Assembly (NCBI GenBank): GCA_030123565.1
Contig: CP126122.1
Span: 1,685,001-1,749,000 of the forward strand
Length of the DNA: 64,000 nt
Direction of reading: 5' to 3'
Source of the DNA: Nitrospira sp.
Lineage (GTDB): Bacteria > Nitrospirota > Nitrospiria > Nitrospirales > Nitrospiraceae
This document shows, one piece after another, positions 55,212 to 64,000 of the stretch. Within the stretch, counting starts at the first letter, position 1, and every line of letters starts with the position of its first letter. Made by a program: the position numbers and the translations under genes. Below the pieces are notes generated by a model, which was not told the origin of the DNA, searched no databases, and saw only the letters and a program-made list of their open reading frames with translations.

Positions 55212-55707
55212 ATGAGCGATCCCCATCAAATCATCTGCTACCCCGTTGGCAACGGTGACACAACTCAAATCGTCTTATCAAACGGGCGGCGCATACTCCT
55301 CGATTACTGTCACCGGCAGAATGGAGAGGATTGTGAAACGCCAGAGATTAATCTGAATGCGCGACTCAAAGAAGAACTCCAGCAGGCCGAACGCGACTAT
55401 TTGGACATCGTGGGATTCACACATGCGGACCGCGACCATATTCAGGGCAGCACCGAATTCTTTGAACTCCAGCACGCTGAAAAATATCGCGGTCAGGGGC
55501 GCATCAAAATTCGCTGTTTATGGGTACCTGCCGCCATGTTGCTTGAGGAAGCCGAAAGGGATGAGCAGAGTGAGGAGTTTTGCATTCTTCGCCAGGAAGC
55601 ACGGCATCGGTTGCTGGAGGGGAAAGACATCCTGGTCTTCTCAAAACCAACGGCACTCGCCGAATGGTTAGAACCGAAGCTCAAGGAGCGTGGCGAATCG
55701 GCGAATG

Positions 55708-56855
55708 TGTATAAGTCAAGACTTCATCGGACAGACAGCGAGTCCTCACCGGGTTTATGCCGCTAAGATTTTCTCCTTTGCCAACGCCACACTGTCCAGG
55801 AATGTCTGCATCGGGGTCTTGCCATAACACCAGCGGCCTTGATGTGGGCGCTGGTGGTTGTAGTCTGCCATCCACGCATCGAGATCGGTCTGCAACTCCT
55901 CGATCGTGCGATAGATCTTTTTCCGAAACGTAACCCGATAGAATTCATTCAGCATCGTCTTGTGGAACCGTTCGCAGATCCCGTTCGTTTGGGGATGCCG
56001 CGTCTTAGTCCGCGTGTGGTCGATGTTTTCCACGGCCAGGTACAGTTCATACTCATGCCGCTCGGGTGTGCCGCAGTACTCGGTCCCGCGGTCGGTCAGC
56101 ACTCGGTTCAAGGGAATCTCCTGCTGCTCGAAGAAGGGCAGTACCCGATCATTCAGGAGATCGGCGGCCATGACCGGCGTCTTCCGGTCATACAGTTTCG
56201 CAAACCCGACCTTACTATAGGTGTCGATGAAGGTCTGTTGATAGATCCGCCCGACGCCCTTGAGCGTGCCGACATAGAAGGTGTCTTGGGCGCCGCAGTA
56301 GCCCGGACACTCGCTCTCGAATTCGCCATGGGCTTCTTTGTCCGCCTTCGCCTTCTCCAACGCTACGACCTGGGCTTCCGTCAAGACCAGGCCCTCTTGG
56401 GCCACCTTGGCCTCCAGCGCCTTGAGTCGTTTCCGCATGGTTTCCAAATCATGCCGGAGCCAGATGCACCGGACCCCCGCCGGCGAGATGGTCACCGCCT
56501 GCTTGCGCAGTTCATTGGCCACCCGCACTTGGCCCCAGGCTGGTTGGGCCACCGCCATGGACACAATGGCCTGTTCGACCTCCGCCGCTACCCGATTCTT
56601 TAGCAGTGGCTTCTGGCGGGAGAGCTCCTGAAGGGCTGCCTCACCGCCGGTCTCATAGAGTTCTTTGAAGCGATAGAAGCTGTCCCGGCTATAGCCCATC
56701 AGCTGACAGGCCTTGGAGACATTGCCCAGTTGCTTCGCCAATTCCAACACGCCGACCTTCGCCCTGATGATCTTTTGTTCGGTGGTCATGGTCCTCACTC
56801 CTTTCGTGAAGGAGAGGACTCTACCGGACTGTCAGATTAAGTTCTAGCACTTACA
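55708..56855. mobile_element. IS481-family insertion sequence, 1148 bp, with 7-bp target duplication
   Basis: The ends are imperfect inverted repeats of about 35-40 bp starting TGTA..AAGT and ending in the complementary ACA. The target duplication GCGAATG is perfect: 55701-55707 on the left and 56856-56862 on the right. The single transposase gene is on the minus strand, opposite to the interrupted gene. Intact ends, perfect duplication and intact transposase point to a recent insertion. Confidence 0.93.
55755..56789 (-). CDS. IS481-family DDE transposase
   Basis: A 344-residue transposase from ATG 56789, which has aaaggag 8-9 nt upstream. Residues ~1-100 are helix-turn-helix ([35 protein letters not shown]), followed by an rve-type integrase core with D in the [21 protein letters not shown] region, D in [10 protein letters not shown] and E in [17 protein letters not shown], ending with [12 protein letters not shown]. 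The full catalytic triad is present. It carries the element that splits the MBL-fold gene. Confidence 0.93.
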
Positions 56856-57517
56856 GCGAATGCACGCGATCATTTATTCATCGATGCTGGCACGATCGTT
56901 CCCGGATTATCAGTGACCAAAGATGGAGTCGAGTTCTTCTGCCATTCACCGTTCATCAAGCATTGCGATGAAGGGGATATCATTCGGAACTCCGCAGCGC
57001 TTATTTTCAACATCCGGTTTCGCTCAGATCACTCACACTATGACTACCTTCATATTGGTGATGCCGCGTGGGAAGACATTGAAGACATTGTCAATACGAC
57101 TCGATATCACAAGAACGATGATCGACTCGAATGGAATCTCTACAACATCCCTCATCATTGCAGCTATCTCGCGTTAAGCGATGACAAAGGAACCCTAGAA
57201 ACGGAACCCAAGCCCCTTGTCAAAGACTTGCTCCTGCAAGGGAGGAACGAAGCGTACATCATCAGCTCCAGTAAACCGATCCCCGACTTGAAGGAGTCTT
57301 ACCTTGAAATACAGCCACCGCATATACAGGCACGCAAAACCTATGAGCGATATCTGAAAGAAGTTGATGGCCGCAAGTTTGTGGTGACGATGGAGGAACC
57401 CAACGCCAAAAAACCTGAACCGCTTATTTTCGAGGTTACAACTGCAGGAATTACCTGGCAACGTTCTCTCTCAATCGGTGCGTCGGCGATCTTAACCTCT
57501 AGACCTCTCCGAGCTGG

Positions 57518-59794
57518 ATGATGAGCGACACGTATTACGAACTGAAAGATTTTCTCCCCGTTACCGAAGTCAACGAATTCGCCTTTGCCCGCACACGGAG
57601 TGTACTCGCCGCTATCCAACAACAACGCGATTACTCCGTCGAGGGGTTACTGAAGCGTGCGGATCGAAAGGTCGAGTGCATCGTAGTCGATGTTGAATCA
57701 GACGGAGTGCCCCCAGGTAACATTCACGGTATCAAGTATAGGGAACGCCTGGCGTTGTGCATTCTGGAAAACGAAAAACAGTTGGTGGAAGTGTCTGCGC
57801 TTCGCAAAGACTTTCCGATCCTGATGCATCAAAATTTAAGTCCACCAGATGCTCCACGAAGCCTATGTCTATATTTTGAACCGCCGGCCTCGGTCACCCG
57901 TTCCTGGACACCGCAGAAGTTTTTGCGCCGAATCCAGTCGTGGCTTGAGAAGAGTGCCAAAGGAGAAATTCATCCTGCGGATCAGCCGGTCGAACAACTG
58001 TTTTTTGCGAGCAAGTACGAACTCGTCTTGCCATGGAATTTCGATGAGCTCAAAGAGGGCAAGGACAATCACACGGTGATTGTAGCGGGGCCAGAACGCC
58101 CCGGAGAAGGACTGACCTGCTTTCTCAAACCTCTTCAGGTACATACCAAGCCACCAAAAGGGACCGTCAAGCATATCGAATTCACACTACCCCCGATCGT
58201 GCATGGCCACATTGAGTGCGATCCAACCACACTAGGTGCACTTGCAGACATTCTGACGCGCCATGGAATCGACATTCTGCCCGACCTGCAGAAAGCGTTG
58301 CGAGATGGGGTGGATGAGAAGGGAGTGCCTGAGTCCGCGGATAGCTCGTTGACAGCCATCTTACTTCATATCCCGATGGCCAGGACGGAGGGCACCCTGC
58401 CCGAAAAGTTTTTCCATCGAGCGTTCATGGTTCCGTGTGGGGTTCGCCAACTTGGTCTCCTTACCGGCGCCATCGTTTTGGTAGAAGTTCCTGAGGGTCG
58501 CAGGTCGCTGAAGAAGTATTTTAGTGGCGAAGGCGTGTTAGGTGACCAACGGCCCACTCAATGGCGTGATCAGGCTATTTACCCGATGGAGGTTCTTCGA
58601 CAAAACGACACGTCATCTGCAAGAAGGCAATCAGGTATCTCGGGCAATGGCCCTGCCGGCGTGTTGGTCGGCGCTGGCTCACTCGGTAGCGCCTTACTCA
58701 ATATCTGGGGACGCAGTGGCTGGGGCCGCTGGACCGTCATCGACAATGACCATATTAAACCTCACAACCTATCGAGACATACGGCCTTCGCAGTACACAT
58801 AGGTCAGCCAAAGGCCATGGTTGTCGCAGAGCTGCATGACGCCGTAATGGAAGGTGCCAGTGGGATCACTCCCCTGTATGCAGATGCATGCGATCTATCA
58901 CAAGAGTCGGTTACCAATGCATTGACATCGGCACAGTTGACTATCGACGCGTCGACGACACTGGAATACCCTCGCATCATGAGTGGTGTAGAGAAAGTAG
59001 GGAGACATATTTCAGTGTTCATAACCCCGAGAGGAACTGATGCGGTTTTGCTTGCTGAAGATGAACAACGACACATTCGATTGCGCACCCTAGAGGCTCA
59101 GTACTACCGCGCTTTGATTCACGAGTCATGGGGCCAGAACCATCTGGACGACAACCTAGGGTCCTTTTGGAGCGGAGCCAGTTGTCGTGACATATCAACC
59201 GTTCTTCCCTATTCGAAAGTTTTGAGTCATGCCAGCATATTGGCAGAGCAGATTCCAATCATGGCAGCCTCTCCGAGAGCGCTAATTCGAGTATGGCAGC
59301 GTGATCCTGAGCGCAGTTCAATAGCGGTGCATGATGTTATGCCTGCACAAGAAATACACATGGACATCGGGAAAATGGCGTTGTTCATTGACAGTGGAAT
59401 AGTCCAGCAACTTTGCACATGGAGAAACGGGAGCCTTCCAAACGAAACTGGGGGGGTGCTATTGGGTTATTATGATTTCAACGTCTCTTCCGCAACTATC
59501 GTTACAGCTCTTCCTGCACCGACGGATAGTAAGTCGAGTCCAGGAGGGTTCGAGCGCGGTATTGTCGGTTTGGAAGAAGCCATCCGCGAAGCTTCAAGAC
59601 GAACCGCGGGAATCGTTGGCTACATCGGCGAATGGCATAGCCATCCACCAAGACATTCTGCCTCACCGAGCAAGGCAGATTTGATCCAGCTCTGTGACCT
59701 CGCCCGAGGAATGGCAGAAGACGGTTTGCCTGCTGTTCAACTGATAGTTGGAGAGAACGATGTTCGGATCCTGCATGGCACACTAGATCAATGA
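57518..59794 (+). CDS. E2-E1-JAB fusion: ubiquitin-like conjugation and deconjugation in one protein
   Basis: A 758-residue protein. About 20-165 is an E2-like domain with candidate catalytic C117 in APRSLCLYF, followed by the helix FLRRIQSWLEKSAKGEI. About 165-375 is a linker region. About 375-610 is an E1/ThiF adenylation domain: GAGSLG (385-390), DND (409-411), NLSR with R420, K432, TIDAS D477 and a candidate thioester C556-R557. About 625-755 is a JAB/MPN metalloprotease with E643, H707, H709 and D721 (ETGG.. EWHSHP.. SKAD). All three active sites look intact. This combines Cap2 (E1-E2) and Cap3 (JAB) of type II CBASS in one chain. It overlaps the MBL-fold gene and the patatin gene (ATGA). 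No ubiquitin-like protein gene or CD-NTase is visible. Confidence 0.88.
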   Translation: MMSDTYYELKDFLPVTEVNEFAFARTRSVLAAIQQQRDYSVEGLLKRADRKVECIVVDVESDGVPPGNIHGIKYRERLALCILENEKQLVEVSALRKDFPILMHQNLSPPDAPRSLCLYFEPPASVTRSWTPQKFLRRIQSWLEKSAKGEIHPADQPVEQLFFASKYELVLPWNFDELKEGKDNHTVIVAGPERPGEGLTCFLKPLQVHTKPPKGTVKHIEFTLPPIVHGHIECDPTTLGALADILTRHGIDILPDLQKALRDGVDEKGVPESADSSLTAILLHIPMARTEGTLPEKFFHRAFMVPCGVRQLGLLTGAIVLVEVPEGRRSLKKYFSGEGVLGDQRPTQWRDQAIYPMEVLRQNDTSSARRQSGISGNGPAGVLVGAGSLGSALLNIWGRSGWGRWTVIDNDHIKPHNLSRHTAFAVHIGQPKAMVVAELHDAVMEGASGITPLYADACDLSQESVTNALTSAQLTIDASTTLEYPRIMSGVEKVGRHISVFITPRGTDAVLLAEDEQRHIRLRTLEAQYYRALIHESWGQNHLDDNLGSFWSGASCRDISTVLPYSKVLSHASILAEQIPIMAASPRALIRVWQRDPERSSIAVHDVMPAQEIHMDIGKMALFIDSGIVQQLCTWRNGSLPNETGGVLLGYYDFNVSSATIVTALPAPTDSKSSPGGFERGIVGLEEAIREASRRTAGIVGYIGEWHSHPPRHSASPSKADLIQLCDLARGMAEDGLPAVQLIVGENDVRILHGTLDQ

Positions 59795-60894
59795 GTTCAG
59801 GCTTATGTCCAAGCATTGCCCTGGCTCTATCAGGTGGTGGCATTCGAGCGATGGTCTTCCACCTTGGAGTCATGCGACTTCTTGCTGAACGATGTTTGTT
59901 AGAGCAGGTCCATCGGATTTCAACGGTCTCAGGTGGCAGCTTGCTGGTAGGCCTTATACTTCAGGAAAATCAAGCCCAGTGGCCATCTTCTGAACACTTC
60001 CTGACAGCGGTGTACCCCAGCCTCCGCGAGAAGTTGTGCCAAAGAAGTTTTCAGTGGGGAGCATTGAGGCAGCTTCTCAATCCGGCAAACTTTCCATTCA
60101 TCTTGTCTCGTGCAAACCTGTTAGCGTTGGCGATCGAAAAGGAATGGAATATTCGGTGCAAACTGTCCGACTTACCACATATGCCGGAATGGTCCATTAA
60201 CGCTACAACGGCAGAGAACGGCAAACGCTTTCGCTTCAAGCGCAGCGACATCGGGGATTATCAGTTAGGCTACGCTCTCCCTGGAAACTTTCCTCTTGCT
60301 CATGCGATGGCGGTCTCCGCAGCCTTTCCTGGCGGCTTCGGACCACTACAGCTGAATGCCAAGCTTTTTGACTGGCAAAAAAAGGAATGGAATGCCCCAT
60401 CAGGCAGCGAGCGATCCATCGATATTGGCTACAACGCTCTGCACCTATACGATGGCGGCGTCTATGACAACCTCGGGCTGGAGCCGTTCTTCGATGCGGG
60501 ACGTGGAAAGTCCAAACATCCTGAGAACGTTATAATCGTGTCAGATGCCGGACGGCCTTTACCATCTGGTTTTTCATATTTCGCACTGAATCCATTCCGG
60601 CTTAAGCGCGTCGCTGACATTATGTCAGATCAGTCCCATGCACTGCGTGTTCGAACCTTTTCGAACTACCTCCAAGAAAGCCATGGGCGAGGTGCGTTCA
60701 TTTACATTGGTACACCGGTAGAGGCTCAATTGCCGTGTAAGTCGGCTACGTTTGCGGCAAACTTTCCGACCACTTTGCGCCGAATCGATTTGACCGAGTT
60801 CGACATGCTCGCCGACCACGGGTATCGGGTAACGAAGCATGCTGAGCAGGTCTATGGTTTGTGTGGCCCACCAGGCAAGACGCAAACCTTGTAA
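59791..60894 (+). CDS. Patatin-like phospholipase, probable effector
   Basis: A 367-residue protein with the patatin fold. The oxyanion loop is SGGGIRA (14-20), the nucleophile elbow STVSGGS (S47) and the catalytic Asp D221 is in YDGGVYDNLGLEP. No signal peptide. The full dyad is present, so lipase activity on membrane phospholipid is expected. In type II CBASS, CapV patatins kill the cell by degrading membrane when triggered by a cyclic nucleotide. Its start overlaps the E2-E1-JAB stop (ATGA). A role as toxic effector is inferred from this context; what would trigger it here is not clear. Confidence 0.88.
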   Translation: MSSGLCPSIALALSGGGIRAMVFHLGVMRLLAERCLLEQVHRISTVSGGSLLVGLILQENQAQWPSSEHFLTAVYPSLREKLCQRSFQWGALRQLLNPANFPFILSRANLLALAIEKEWNIRCKLSDLPHMPEWSINATTAENGKRFRFKRSDIGDYQLGYALPGNFPLAHAMAVSAAFPGGFGPLQLNAKLFDWQKKEWNAPSGSERSIDIGYNALHLYDGGVYDNLGLEPFFDAGRGKSKHPENVIIVSDAGRPLPSGFSYFALNPFRLKRVADIMSDQSHALRVRTFSNYLQESHGRGAFIYIGTPVEAQLPCKSATFAANFPTTLRRIDLTEFDMLADHGYRVTKHAEQVYGLCGPPGKTQTL

Positions 60895-61285
60895 CAGAGT
60901 CTCACCTTGAGGAGTTCTCCGTTCCGGTCAGAGTATCAGACTGCTTAAGACCGGTTGTCACTCCGCTGGCGGCAATCCTATGACTATGGCAGTAGCGTAG
61001 GAACCATCAGCTTGATCGAGGCACTTATGGGGGACTTCATCCCCTGTGTGTGAATCACGATCAAGAATTGGTCAGCCTGAGAGGATCGGATCGAATGTGC
61101 CTCACAGCGCAACGCCTGTTCTCGTTTGACTTCAAATCAGAACATTGGGCAAGAGCTGGTTCAACTTGGCGGAGGGCGGGGTGTTCACTTCGTGAAGTCA
61201 ACCAGTGGGGTCACAGTCCAAGGCGGGTCACTCTTGCGAGCAGACTGAAAGAGTGGTAAGGTTTCCATGTTAAGGAGACGCCTCA
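60895..61285. other. Intergenic stretch between the defence-like operon and the copper-efflux locus
   Basis: About 390 nt with no convincing gene; a 69-codon open frame at 61050 has no ribosome site or recognisable family. The end holds aaggag, the ribosome site of the next gene. No clear terminator was seen after the patatin gene. Confidence 0.4.
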
Positions 61286-61651
61286 ATGCGCCGCTTCCAT
61301 CCCCTCCTCTCAACGACATTGGTGCTGCTCCTTCTCGTGTTAAGCTTCAACGCTTATGCCTGTCTCTTACCGGTAAGCAGCATCTCAAACACTGAGATGG
61401 GCAATGGCTGCTCCACACCTGAAGAGCAACCGGCACGGCAGGTGTGCGACGCCTTTAAGACGTTCACTGTCGAGGCGTCGAGTCAGCCCCAGCCCTCATG
61501 TGATGGTCACATGCTGTGGGTGGGAGAAGCTCTCGCTGGTTCTCTGCTCTCGTCACCCCCGCTAGGCGGTATCCTCAAGCATCCTTTGCCGTTACCCTCA
61601 GACAGTTCATCCCAACTGCTCCGGACAAACACGACCGTTCTTCGCATTTGA
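61286..61651 (+). CDS. Small secreted Cys-containing protein of a metal-efflux locus
   Basis: A 121-residue protein with a signal peptide (MRRFHPLLSTTLVLLLLVLSFNAYA) and a mature part with five cysteines (CLLP, NGCSTPEE, QVCDAF, PSCDGH). aaggag lies about 8 nt upstream. It is not a known family; position directly before a CusC/CusB-like gene suggests a role in copper or silver handling, which is inferred only. Confidence 0.65.
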   Translation: MRRFHPLLSTTLVLLLLVLSFNAYACLLPVSSISNTEMGNGCSTPEEQPARQVCDAFKTFTVEASSQPQPSCDGHMLWVGEALAGSLLSSPPLGGILKHPLPLPSDSSSQLLRTNTTVLRI

Positions 61652-61805
61652 TCTTCCCATCCTGAGTTTTCTCAACCCGTTGTTCTAAATCGTACTGCTC
61701 AGTCCTCGCTCTGAACGAGCCAGGCCATCCCGCTTGGTCGTTAGAACCGATCGCCGGTTGTTCAGTTGGAGTGCTGAGCCCAAGAGTTTGTGAAGGAGGA
61801 TTCTC

Positions 61806-64000
61806 ATGAGATGGAATCCACTATGCCAGGTCCTCACGATGGCCGTGGCCGGAATGATGTTTGTCGGTGGACTCCCAGACCGTGCCGATGCGGATGAAGG
61901 CGTCCAGCCAGCGACGTTGCGCTTGGCAGGGTTGATCCAGGAAAGCTTGGCACGGAATCCCGAAATTCAGGCGGCACGGAAACAATGGGAAGCCGTTGGG
62001 CATCGCATCAGGCAAGTGCAGTCGCTGGATGACCCGATACTATCGGTCCAATTGTGGAATTTTCCGCAGACCTTCAACGTTACGCAGACGCAGAACAGCA
62101 TCTTCGGCCTGTCACAGAGCTTCCCGTTTCCAGGGAAGCTGGATCTCAAGGGAGAGGTAGCGAGTCGTTCAGCAGAGATGGCCGAGCAGGCCTTGCACGC
62201 GAAGGAACGGGAGCTGGTCGCCCGTCTGAAGCAGGCTTACTACGATCTGTTCCTCACCCACAAGGCGATCCAGATTCATCATGAGCAAGTCGAACTGCTC
62301 GGACAGTTCGTAGAGACTACGACCGCGAAGTTCCGTGCGGGCAAGGGAAGCCAAGCCGATGTCCTCAAGGCCCAGGTCGAGTTGTCCCTGCTGTTTCAGC
62401 ATCTTCCCGTCCTGGAACAGCGTCGCAAGACCGCCGAAGCGATGCTGAATACCCTGCTTGATCGGGATTCCACCTCACCCTTGGGCGTCCCTCAAGAGCC
62501 GCCTCAGATCCCGCTCGATAGAACCCTCGACGATCTCCACCGTCTCGCGCTGAACGACAGGCCGGAGCTCAAAGCTGCCGAGTTGGCCGTGCAACGGAAC
62601 GAGCAGGCCCGCGCGCTGGCCCAGCGGCAGTACTACCCGGACTTTAATGTGGCGTTTCAGCGCTTCCAAAACTTTCAGGCCAACGACGGATTCGGCGCCT
62701 ATGTGGCGATGAGCATCCCCTTCGCGTTTTGGACCAAGCCGAAGTATGACGCAGGCGTGCAGGAGGCCGCGGCGGCGGTCTCGGCCGCACGGGCGCAGCA
62801 ACATACCTTAGAAAACCTGACCCGATTTCAGATCAACGACCTCCTGGCCACGCAAGACGAGTATCTCCTTGCCGTGAGAACGCAGGGCCAACTGGCTGCC
62901 AGTCCGCTCGCTGAAGTCAAGGCCAACGCCGCTGCCCTGGTGGCTGGTTCGCGGGAACGCCTGCACCTGTGGGACGTGACCGATCGGCAAATCGTGGCGC
63001 TGGAGCGTCGAGGCAAAGCCGAGCCGGTACTCACGGTCTATGCTCCTTCTTCCGGGATCGTCCTGAAGCGAGAAGCCTTGCCTGGGAAATATGTGGAACC
63101 AGGCACGACGTTGTATGAGGTGGCGGACCTCTCCACGGTCTGGATCTCTGCCGATCTCTATGAATCAGAAATGGCTGCCACGAAACTCGGTCAGCCGGCA
63201 TCGGTCACTTTCGCGGCCTATCCTGGCACAACCTTTCCGGCCAGAGTGGCCTACATCTATCCATCAGTCAATACCGACGCCCGTACGGTGCGCGTGCGGG
63301 TGGAATTGCCAAATCCTGGATTGAAGCTGAAGCCCGGCATGTACGGGAACGTGACCCTGCAAACGGATGCGGTCCACACCTTAGTTGTGCCCAAGGAAGC
63401 GGTGCTGGAGACGGGGCTTCGCCAACTCGTGTTTCTGGACAGGGGGCAAGGCCGATATGAGCCGGCTTCGGTCAAACTGGGGCGTCGGAATCAGGATGAC
63501 GTGGAAGTGCTGGAAGGACTCAAAGAAGGAGATCGCATCGTCACCTCGGCCAATTTCTTGTTGGACGCAGAGAGCAAGTTGGCATCGGCGTCGAGCATGC
63601 AGGCCATGATGGGCCGGATCGGCATGGCCGATTGGCAAATGCGCGGCGCCTACGAAGCCAAGATGGAAGGCATGGACATGGGAAAGGAGCGCGTCTCAGC
63701 GTCTCCGGGGCGGGAGGGTGAGAAAGGTGGCATGGGTGACATGAAGAGCATGGAGATGGAAGGGATGAAGGGGATGGAAGGCATGCAAGGCATGCAGGGG
63801 ATGGGAGGCATGCCGGGCATGGAGATGGGGAGCAAGAAAGGGATGACAGGGGCTGAGACCCGTCAGATGAACGGACTCACTCTCTCCCTCACGACCGCCC
63901 CGGAAAAACCCAAGGCCGGTGAAGTGCTCGTGAGACTCAAGGTGACCGATCAGGCCGGCAAGCCGGTGACCAATGCGCAAGTGCTCTTCGTCTATACCAT
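61806..64000 (+). CDS. CusC (TolC-like) / CusB (adaptor) in-frame chimera, partial at the window end
   Basis: One open frame from ATG 61806 (aaggagga upstream) to the end of the window, over 731 codons. Residues 1-~344 are a signal peptide plus the N-terminal part of a CusC-type outer-membrane factor (LRLAGLIQESLARNPEIQAARKQWEAVGHR, QSFPFPGKLDLKGEV, AMSIPFAFWTKPKYDAGVQEA, TRFQINDLLA). From ~345 it becomes the C-terminal part of a CusB-type adaptor (ATQDEYLLAVRTQGQLAASP, LTVYAPSSGIVLKREALPGKYVEPG, VWISADLYESEMAATKLG, MYGNVTLQTD). The last ~85 codons of CusC and the N-terminal half of CusB (including half of its lipoyl domain) are missing. A Met-rich segment (about 16 Met in ~60 residues, 63660-63845) and a YtkA-like domain follow. 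Either a deletion chimera or an assembly collapse. Confidence 0.85.
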   Translation, partial: MRWNPLCQVLTMAVAGMMFVGGLPDRADADEGVQPATLRLAGLIQESLARNPEIQAARKQWEAVGHRIRQVQSLDDPILSVQLWNFPQTFNVTQTQNSIFGLSQSFPFPGKLDLKGEVASRSAEMAEQALHAKERELVARLKQAYYDLFLTHKAIQIHHEQVELLGQFVETTTAKFRAGKGSQADVLKAQVELSLLFQHLPVLEQRRKTAEAMLNTLLDRDSTSPLGVPQEPPQIPLDRTLDDLHRLALNDRPELKAAELAVQRNEQARALAQRQYYPDFNVAFQRFQNFQANDGFGAYVAMSIPFAFWTKPKYDAGVQEAAAAVSAARAQQHTLENLTRFQINDLLATQDEYLLAVRTQGQLAASPLAEVKANAAALVAGSRERLHLWDVTDRQIVALERRGKAEPVLTVYAPSSGIVLKREALPGKYVEPGTTLYEVADLSTVWISADLYESEMAATKLGQPASVTFAAYPGTTFPARVAYIYPSVNTDARTVRVRVELPNPGLKLKPGMYGNVTLQTDAVHTLVVPKEAVLETGLRQLVFLDRGQGRYEPASVKLGRRNQDDVEVLEGLKEGDRIVTSANFLLDAESKLASASSMQAMMGRIGMADWQMRGAYEAKMEGMDMGKERVSASPGREGEKGGMGDMKSMEMEGMKGMEGMQGMQGMGGMPGMEMGSKKGMTGAETRQMNGLTLSLTTAPEKPKAGEVLVRLKVTDQAGKPVTNAQVLFVYT

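Follow-up and report, generated by a model that had tools for sequence, protein, structure and literature searches.

A fused cusC-cusB reading frame in a Nitrospira genome, probably formed by deletion between short direct repeats in one of two copper-efflux operons

Does an open reading frame that runs from a copper-efflux outer membrane factor straight into its adaptor encode a new kind of pump component, or is it what remains after part of an operon was lost? We examined this question for a cus locus at the end of the window (the whole stretch of 64,000 nucleotides that was analyzed, positions 1685001-1749000 of one 4,616,681-base contig). Its features are as follows.

61286..61651, + strand: small conserved ORF 5' of cusC, without a family match, conserved also upstream of the intact second copy of the operon
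61806..64000, + strand, running on to the equivalent of 64181: fused cusC-cusB open frame, 791 aa
61806..62850, + strand: CusC part (residues 1-348), with an N-terminal hydrophobic segment, the entire OEP repeat 1 and ~110 positions of repeat 2
62838..62850, + strand: GACCTCCTGGCCA, the sole leftover copy of a 13-base direct repeat, at the joint
62838..64000, + strand, ending beyond the window: CusB part, with hairpin, second lipoyl half, beta-barrel and C-terminal domains, Met-rich linker and YtkA-like domain

The fused frame is open up to the end of the window and continues for 181 bases more in the 4.62-Mb chromosome, giving 791 codons and a stop at L009 5179-5181 (equivalent to window position 64181). 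An intact cusA of 1055 codons begins 6 bases past this stop and scores 1162 against the CusA/CzcA family cut-off of 701. When searched against Pfam, the first half of the frame matches OEP twice, and the second half matches HlyD_D23, HlyD_3 and a C-terminal YtkA-like domain. An earlier note, made from the letters of the window, had the frame passing from CusC into CusB at 62838-62850, and our alignments locate the switch exactly there, within GACCTCCTGGCCA. This sequence is common to cusC, cusB and the joint, with the window following cusC to its left and cusB to its right, and DNA matches to intact operons end or begin in an overlap of at most 16 bases (62838-62853). At the protein level, CusC accounts for residues 1-348 and CusB for everything from residue 345, the four residues DLLA being common to both, while the last ~95 residues of CusC and the first 156 of CusB are absent. 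A scan for sigma-70-type promoters found none. The end of the CusB half (window 63660-64000 and on to L009 5178) consists of a Met/Gly-rich, tandemly repeated linker and the YtkA-like domain, an extension that E. coli CusB is not known to have.

The same chromosome carries an intact cusCBA copy on the opposite strand (C1:3348208-3351268), with a complete cusC (443 aa from the ATG), an overlapping cusB (583 aa) and cusA. It is ~88% identical to the fused locus, with the cusC portion of the fused gene matching it at 89% and the cusB portion at 80% DNA identity. In this copy and in intact relatives, cusC and cusB each contain one instance of GACCTCCTGGCCA or a close variant of it; the two instances lie 745 bases apart in the same-genome copy (matching at 13/13 and 12/13 positions, with similar matches in L042, L043, L047 and L048) and 754-762 bases apart in four relatives. 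The earlier note had pointed to a Leu-Leu-Ala stretch shared by the two genes, and such a repeat is indeed present in both, although it spans 13 bases coding DLLA rather than 9. Because the repeat is read in the identical codon frame in cusC and cusB, any deletion between its two copies would be in frame.

The arrangement supports the suggestion of a deletion between short direct repeats. A single repeat copy stands at the joint with flanks from each parent gene, the same short sequence bounds both ends of the lost segment in undeleted copies, and the segment missing from the fused gene has a single occurrence in the genome, within the intact copy. Relocation of the segment to another place in the genome was considered and is ruled out by this single occurrence. 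Deletions between short direct repeats in bacteria, which proceed by RecA-independent illegitimate recombination, likewise leave one copy of the repeat and lose the sequence between; the difference here is that the repeat is codon-aligned in two adjoining genes, so that the product is in frame. Illegitimate recombination makes use of repeats of this length. On its own the repeat proves little, as the longest exact word common to codon-shuffled versions of both genes reached at least 11 bases in about half of the trials, and a shared stretch of 11-13 bases is within chance for a pair of genes this long. The weight of the case therefore lies with the fused protein and the 745-762 bases that are missing.

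Comparison with the cusC and cusB of relatives, which by both DNA and protein are Nitrospira genomes, agreed with the earlier note's picture of two genes that are normally separate. At none of the 67 loci with both halves placed (64 distinct operons, including this genome's intact copy) were the two joined in one frame; all had separate frames. Frames of ~1000-1076 aa extending over both genes in relatives had seemed to be natural cusC-cusB fusions, but these were rejected since a stop separates the two frames and the figures reflect read-through of that one stop. Among the 396 genomes of the phylum searched, only this one had a match across the joint (0 of the 395 others). A degenerate pattern for NDLLATQDEY had no match in 84,980 species, a set from which records of this genome were possibly left out, and a search of plasmids gave no match. 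The titles and abstracts returned by a literature search described no natural fusion of an outer membrane factor to an adaptor, which is weak evidence. As no very close relative is among the genomes compared (the closest are ~80-95% identical across cusC and cusB), the undeleted version of this very locus was not seen among them.

We consider it very probable that a deletion between short direct repeats fused cusC and cusB and thereby inactivated one of two redundant copper pumps, with the intact copy covering the function. A Nitrospira-type bacterium would have had a pair of paralogous cusCBA operons for copper efflux, one of which lost ~750 bases between GACCTCCTGGCCA or a near match late in cusC and its counterpart where the cusB hairpin begins, likely by RecA-independent slippage or single-strand annealing. 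The resulting 791-residue product would place the exported N-terminal three quarters of CusC, helix to helix, onto a CusB without its membrane anchor and first lipoyl half. Because such a protein would most likely neither form a channel nor work as an adaptor, the operon would be inactivated and its function left to the intact copy, although CusA, encoded downstream, could still partner the CusB and CusC made from that copy. The earlier note had expected either a loss of efflux or an odd protein; the product is indeed probably non-functional, but the cell need not lose efflux because of the intact, ~88% identical operon. The event is a real but ordinary gene loss in a single lineage, and one of the two closely related cusCBA copies in this Nitrospira-type genome is probably dead or dying. 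For annotation, the fused protein should probably not be taken for a novel type of efflux component, and short codon-aligned repeats in adjoining operon genes can yield in-frame fusions in one step.

Besides the undeleted locus not being seen in a very close relative, two observations count against the deletion reading. The locus is a mosaic in which the best match switches between relatives every few hundred bases, and the fused frame is without the decay that a long-dead gene would show. Neither relaxed selection nor further damage of the kind expected of a pseudogene was found, the fused gene being within the range of intact copies. Private changes at columns invariant in 51 CusC and 40 CusB sequences number 0 and 1 in the fused gene, and likewise 0 and 1 in the intact copy. 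In the cusC part, branch dN/dS comes to 0.21-0.28 (against 0.05-0.33 in others), in the cusB part to 0.16 (against 0.10-0.25) and in the downstream cusA to 0.06 (against 0.05-0.10). Since both halves and cusA lack an excess of changes, the deletion is probably recent or the fused frame still under constraint; the dN/dS values agree with a deletion young relative to the age of the branch, and continued constraint would also be compatible with them.

An identical fused frame could have come from recombination, at this short homology, between the cusC of one cus operon and the cusB of another copy, which we judge unlikely. The genome does have two closely related cus operons, and the left half of the fused gene has the intact copy as its nearest match (dS 0.25), while the right half is nearer to other relatives (dS 0.39-0.40, versus 0.54 for the intact copy). 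However, affinity also switches elsewhere in the locus, at several points, so the switch at the joint is not special; moreover, the upstream ORF, cusC, cusB and cusA follow one another without interruption, and a search for a reciprocal product found none. That the true locus consists of two separate genes, with the fusion due to an assembly artefact or to a minor deletion variant caught in the consensus, would suit its presence in one genome only. This is very unlikely, given that a 13-base repeat is too short for collapse in usual assembly, that the flanks are 11-20% divergent from the second copy, and that the contig is a single 4.6-Mb chromosome.

Loss of function after the deletion is suggested by what each parent protein retains. 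Residues 42-348 are like CusC/TolC outer membrane factors (PF02321), with OEP repeat 1 whole and repeat 2 stopping at about position 112 of 187, so that two complete repeats are not present; what differs is the lack of the C-terminal end, where the long helix that follows the fourth strand would be completed and the closing helices would lie. Each chain of E. coli CusC gives four strands and four long helices to the trimer (PMC3017539), and the fused protein is missing the final stretch of the last helical part. Its likeness to CusB/CzcB adaptors (PF16576, TIGR01730) extends from where the hairpin begins through to the C-terminus and includes the Met-rich linker and the YtkA-like tail that other Nitrospira CusB proteins have, but it sits behind CusC and has no N-terminal anchor, first strands or first lipoyl half. 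The earlier note had named a signal peptide, the first lipoyl half and the hairpin as the CusB parts that normally come before this point, but the hairpin is kept and lies after the joint. With the first 156 residues of CusB absent, no CusB export signal or membrane anchor of its own was found, and export of the fused protein could come only from the CusC N-terminus.

The same note's adaptor with half a lipoyl domain was upheld, as a complete lipoyl (barrel-sandwich) domain, which is built from two halves flanking the hairpin, is not present and PF16576 is matched only from position 46-59 of 214. In an AlphaFold2 model of the fused protein (15-row alignment; weak overall, with pLDDT 59 and pTM 0.30), the second lipoyl half (residues 407-442) has pLDDT 25-32 and no strands, whereas the equivalent residues 219-251 of the same-genome intact CusB form strands with pLDDT ~68-78 (from a 7-row alignment only). 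In the same model, one helix crosses the joint (residues 311-365), the CusB hairpin is present and the YtkA-like domain is well defined; Foldseek matches the model to outer membrane factors and adaptors with low TM-scores. An expressed, functional one-chain channel-adaptor, in which the CusB hairpin helix continues or completes the truncated CusC helical barrel and the pump around CusA consists of two proteins rather than three, would draw on the in-frame joint and the helix predicted across it, on the resemblance of adaptor hairpins to TolC barrel helices (PMC4446572) and on the lack of excess substitutions, but is extremely improbable given the missing lipoyl half and last CusC helices, the weak model with its unfolded lipoyl remnant, the abolition of hexamer formation by lipoyl disruption in DevB (a result cited in PMC4446572) and the absence of the fusion from every relative.

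The fused gene sits in a metal-resistance cluster, as a heavy-metal P-type ATPase gene and two further, more distant efflux operons lie within 35 kb downstream (L009 12747-15170, L009 15866 to L010 2095, and L010 14350 onwards). Throughout the cus operon (window 61250-64000 and L009 2250-8400), the closest relative changes every few hundred bases, a mosaic pattern that points to frequent recombination among Nitrospira cus operons. On the 5' side, window 59001-61000 (the end of an E2-ThiF-JAB gene and a patatin-like gene) is 95-98% identical to the relative L044, while the cus genes just 3' of it are only ~72-88% identical to L044, which suggests, from sequence identity, a recent transfer of this defence block. 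The E2-ThiF-JAB gene (57518-59794) matches the cap2_3 model of the anti-phage 6A-MBL system far above cut-off. Its partner, the MBL-fold gene of that system (NF058524, window 55212-57521), is split by an IS481-family transposase gene (55755-56798, minus strand), with the two halves matching model positions 2-152 and 174-346.
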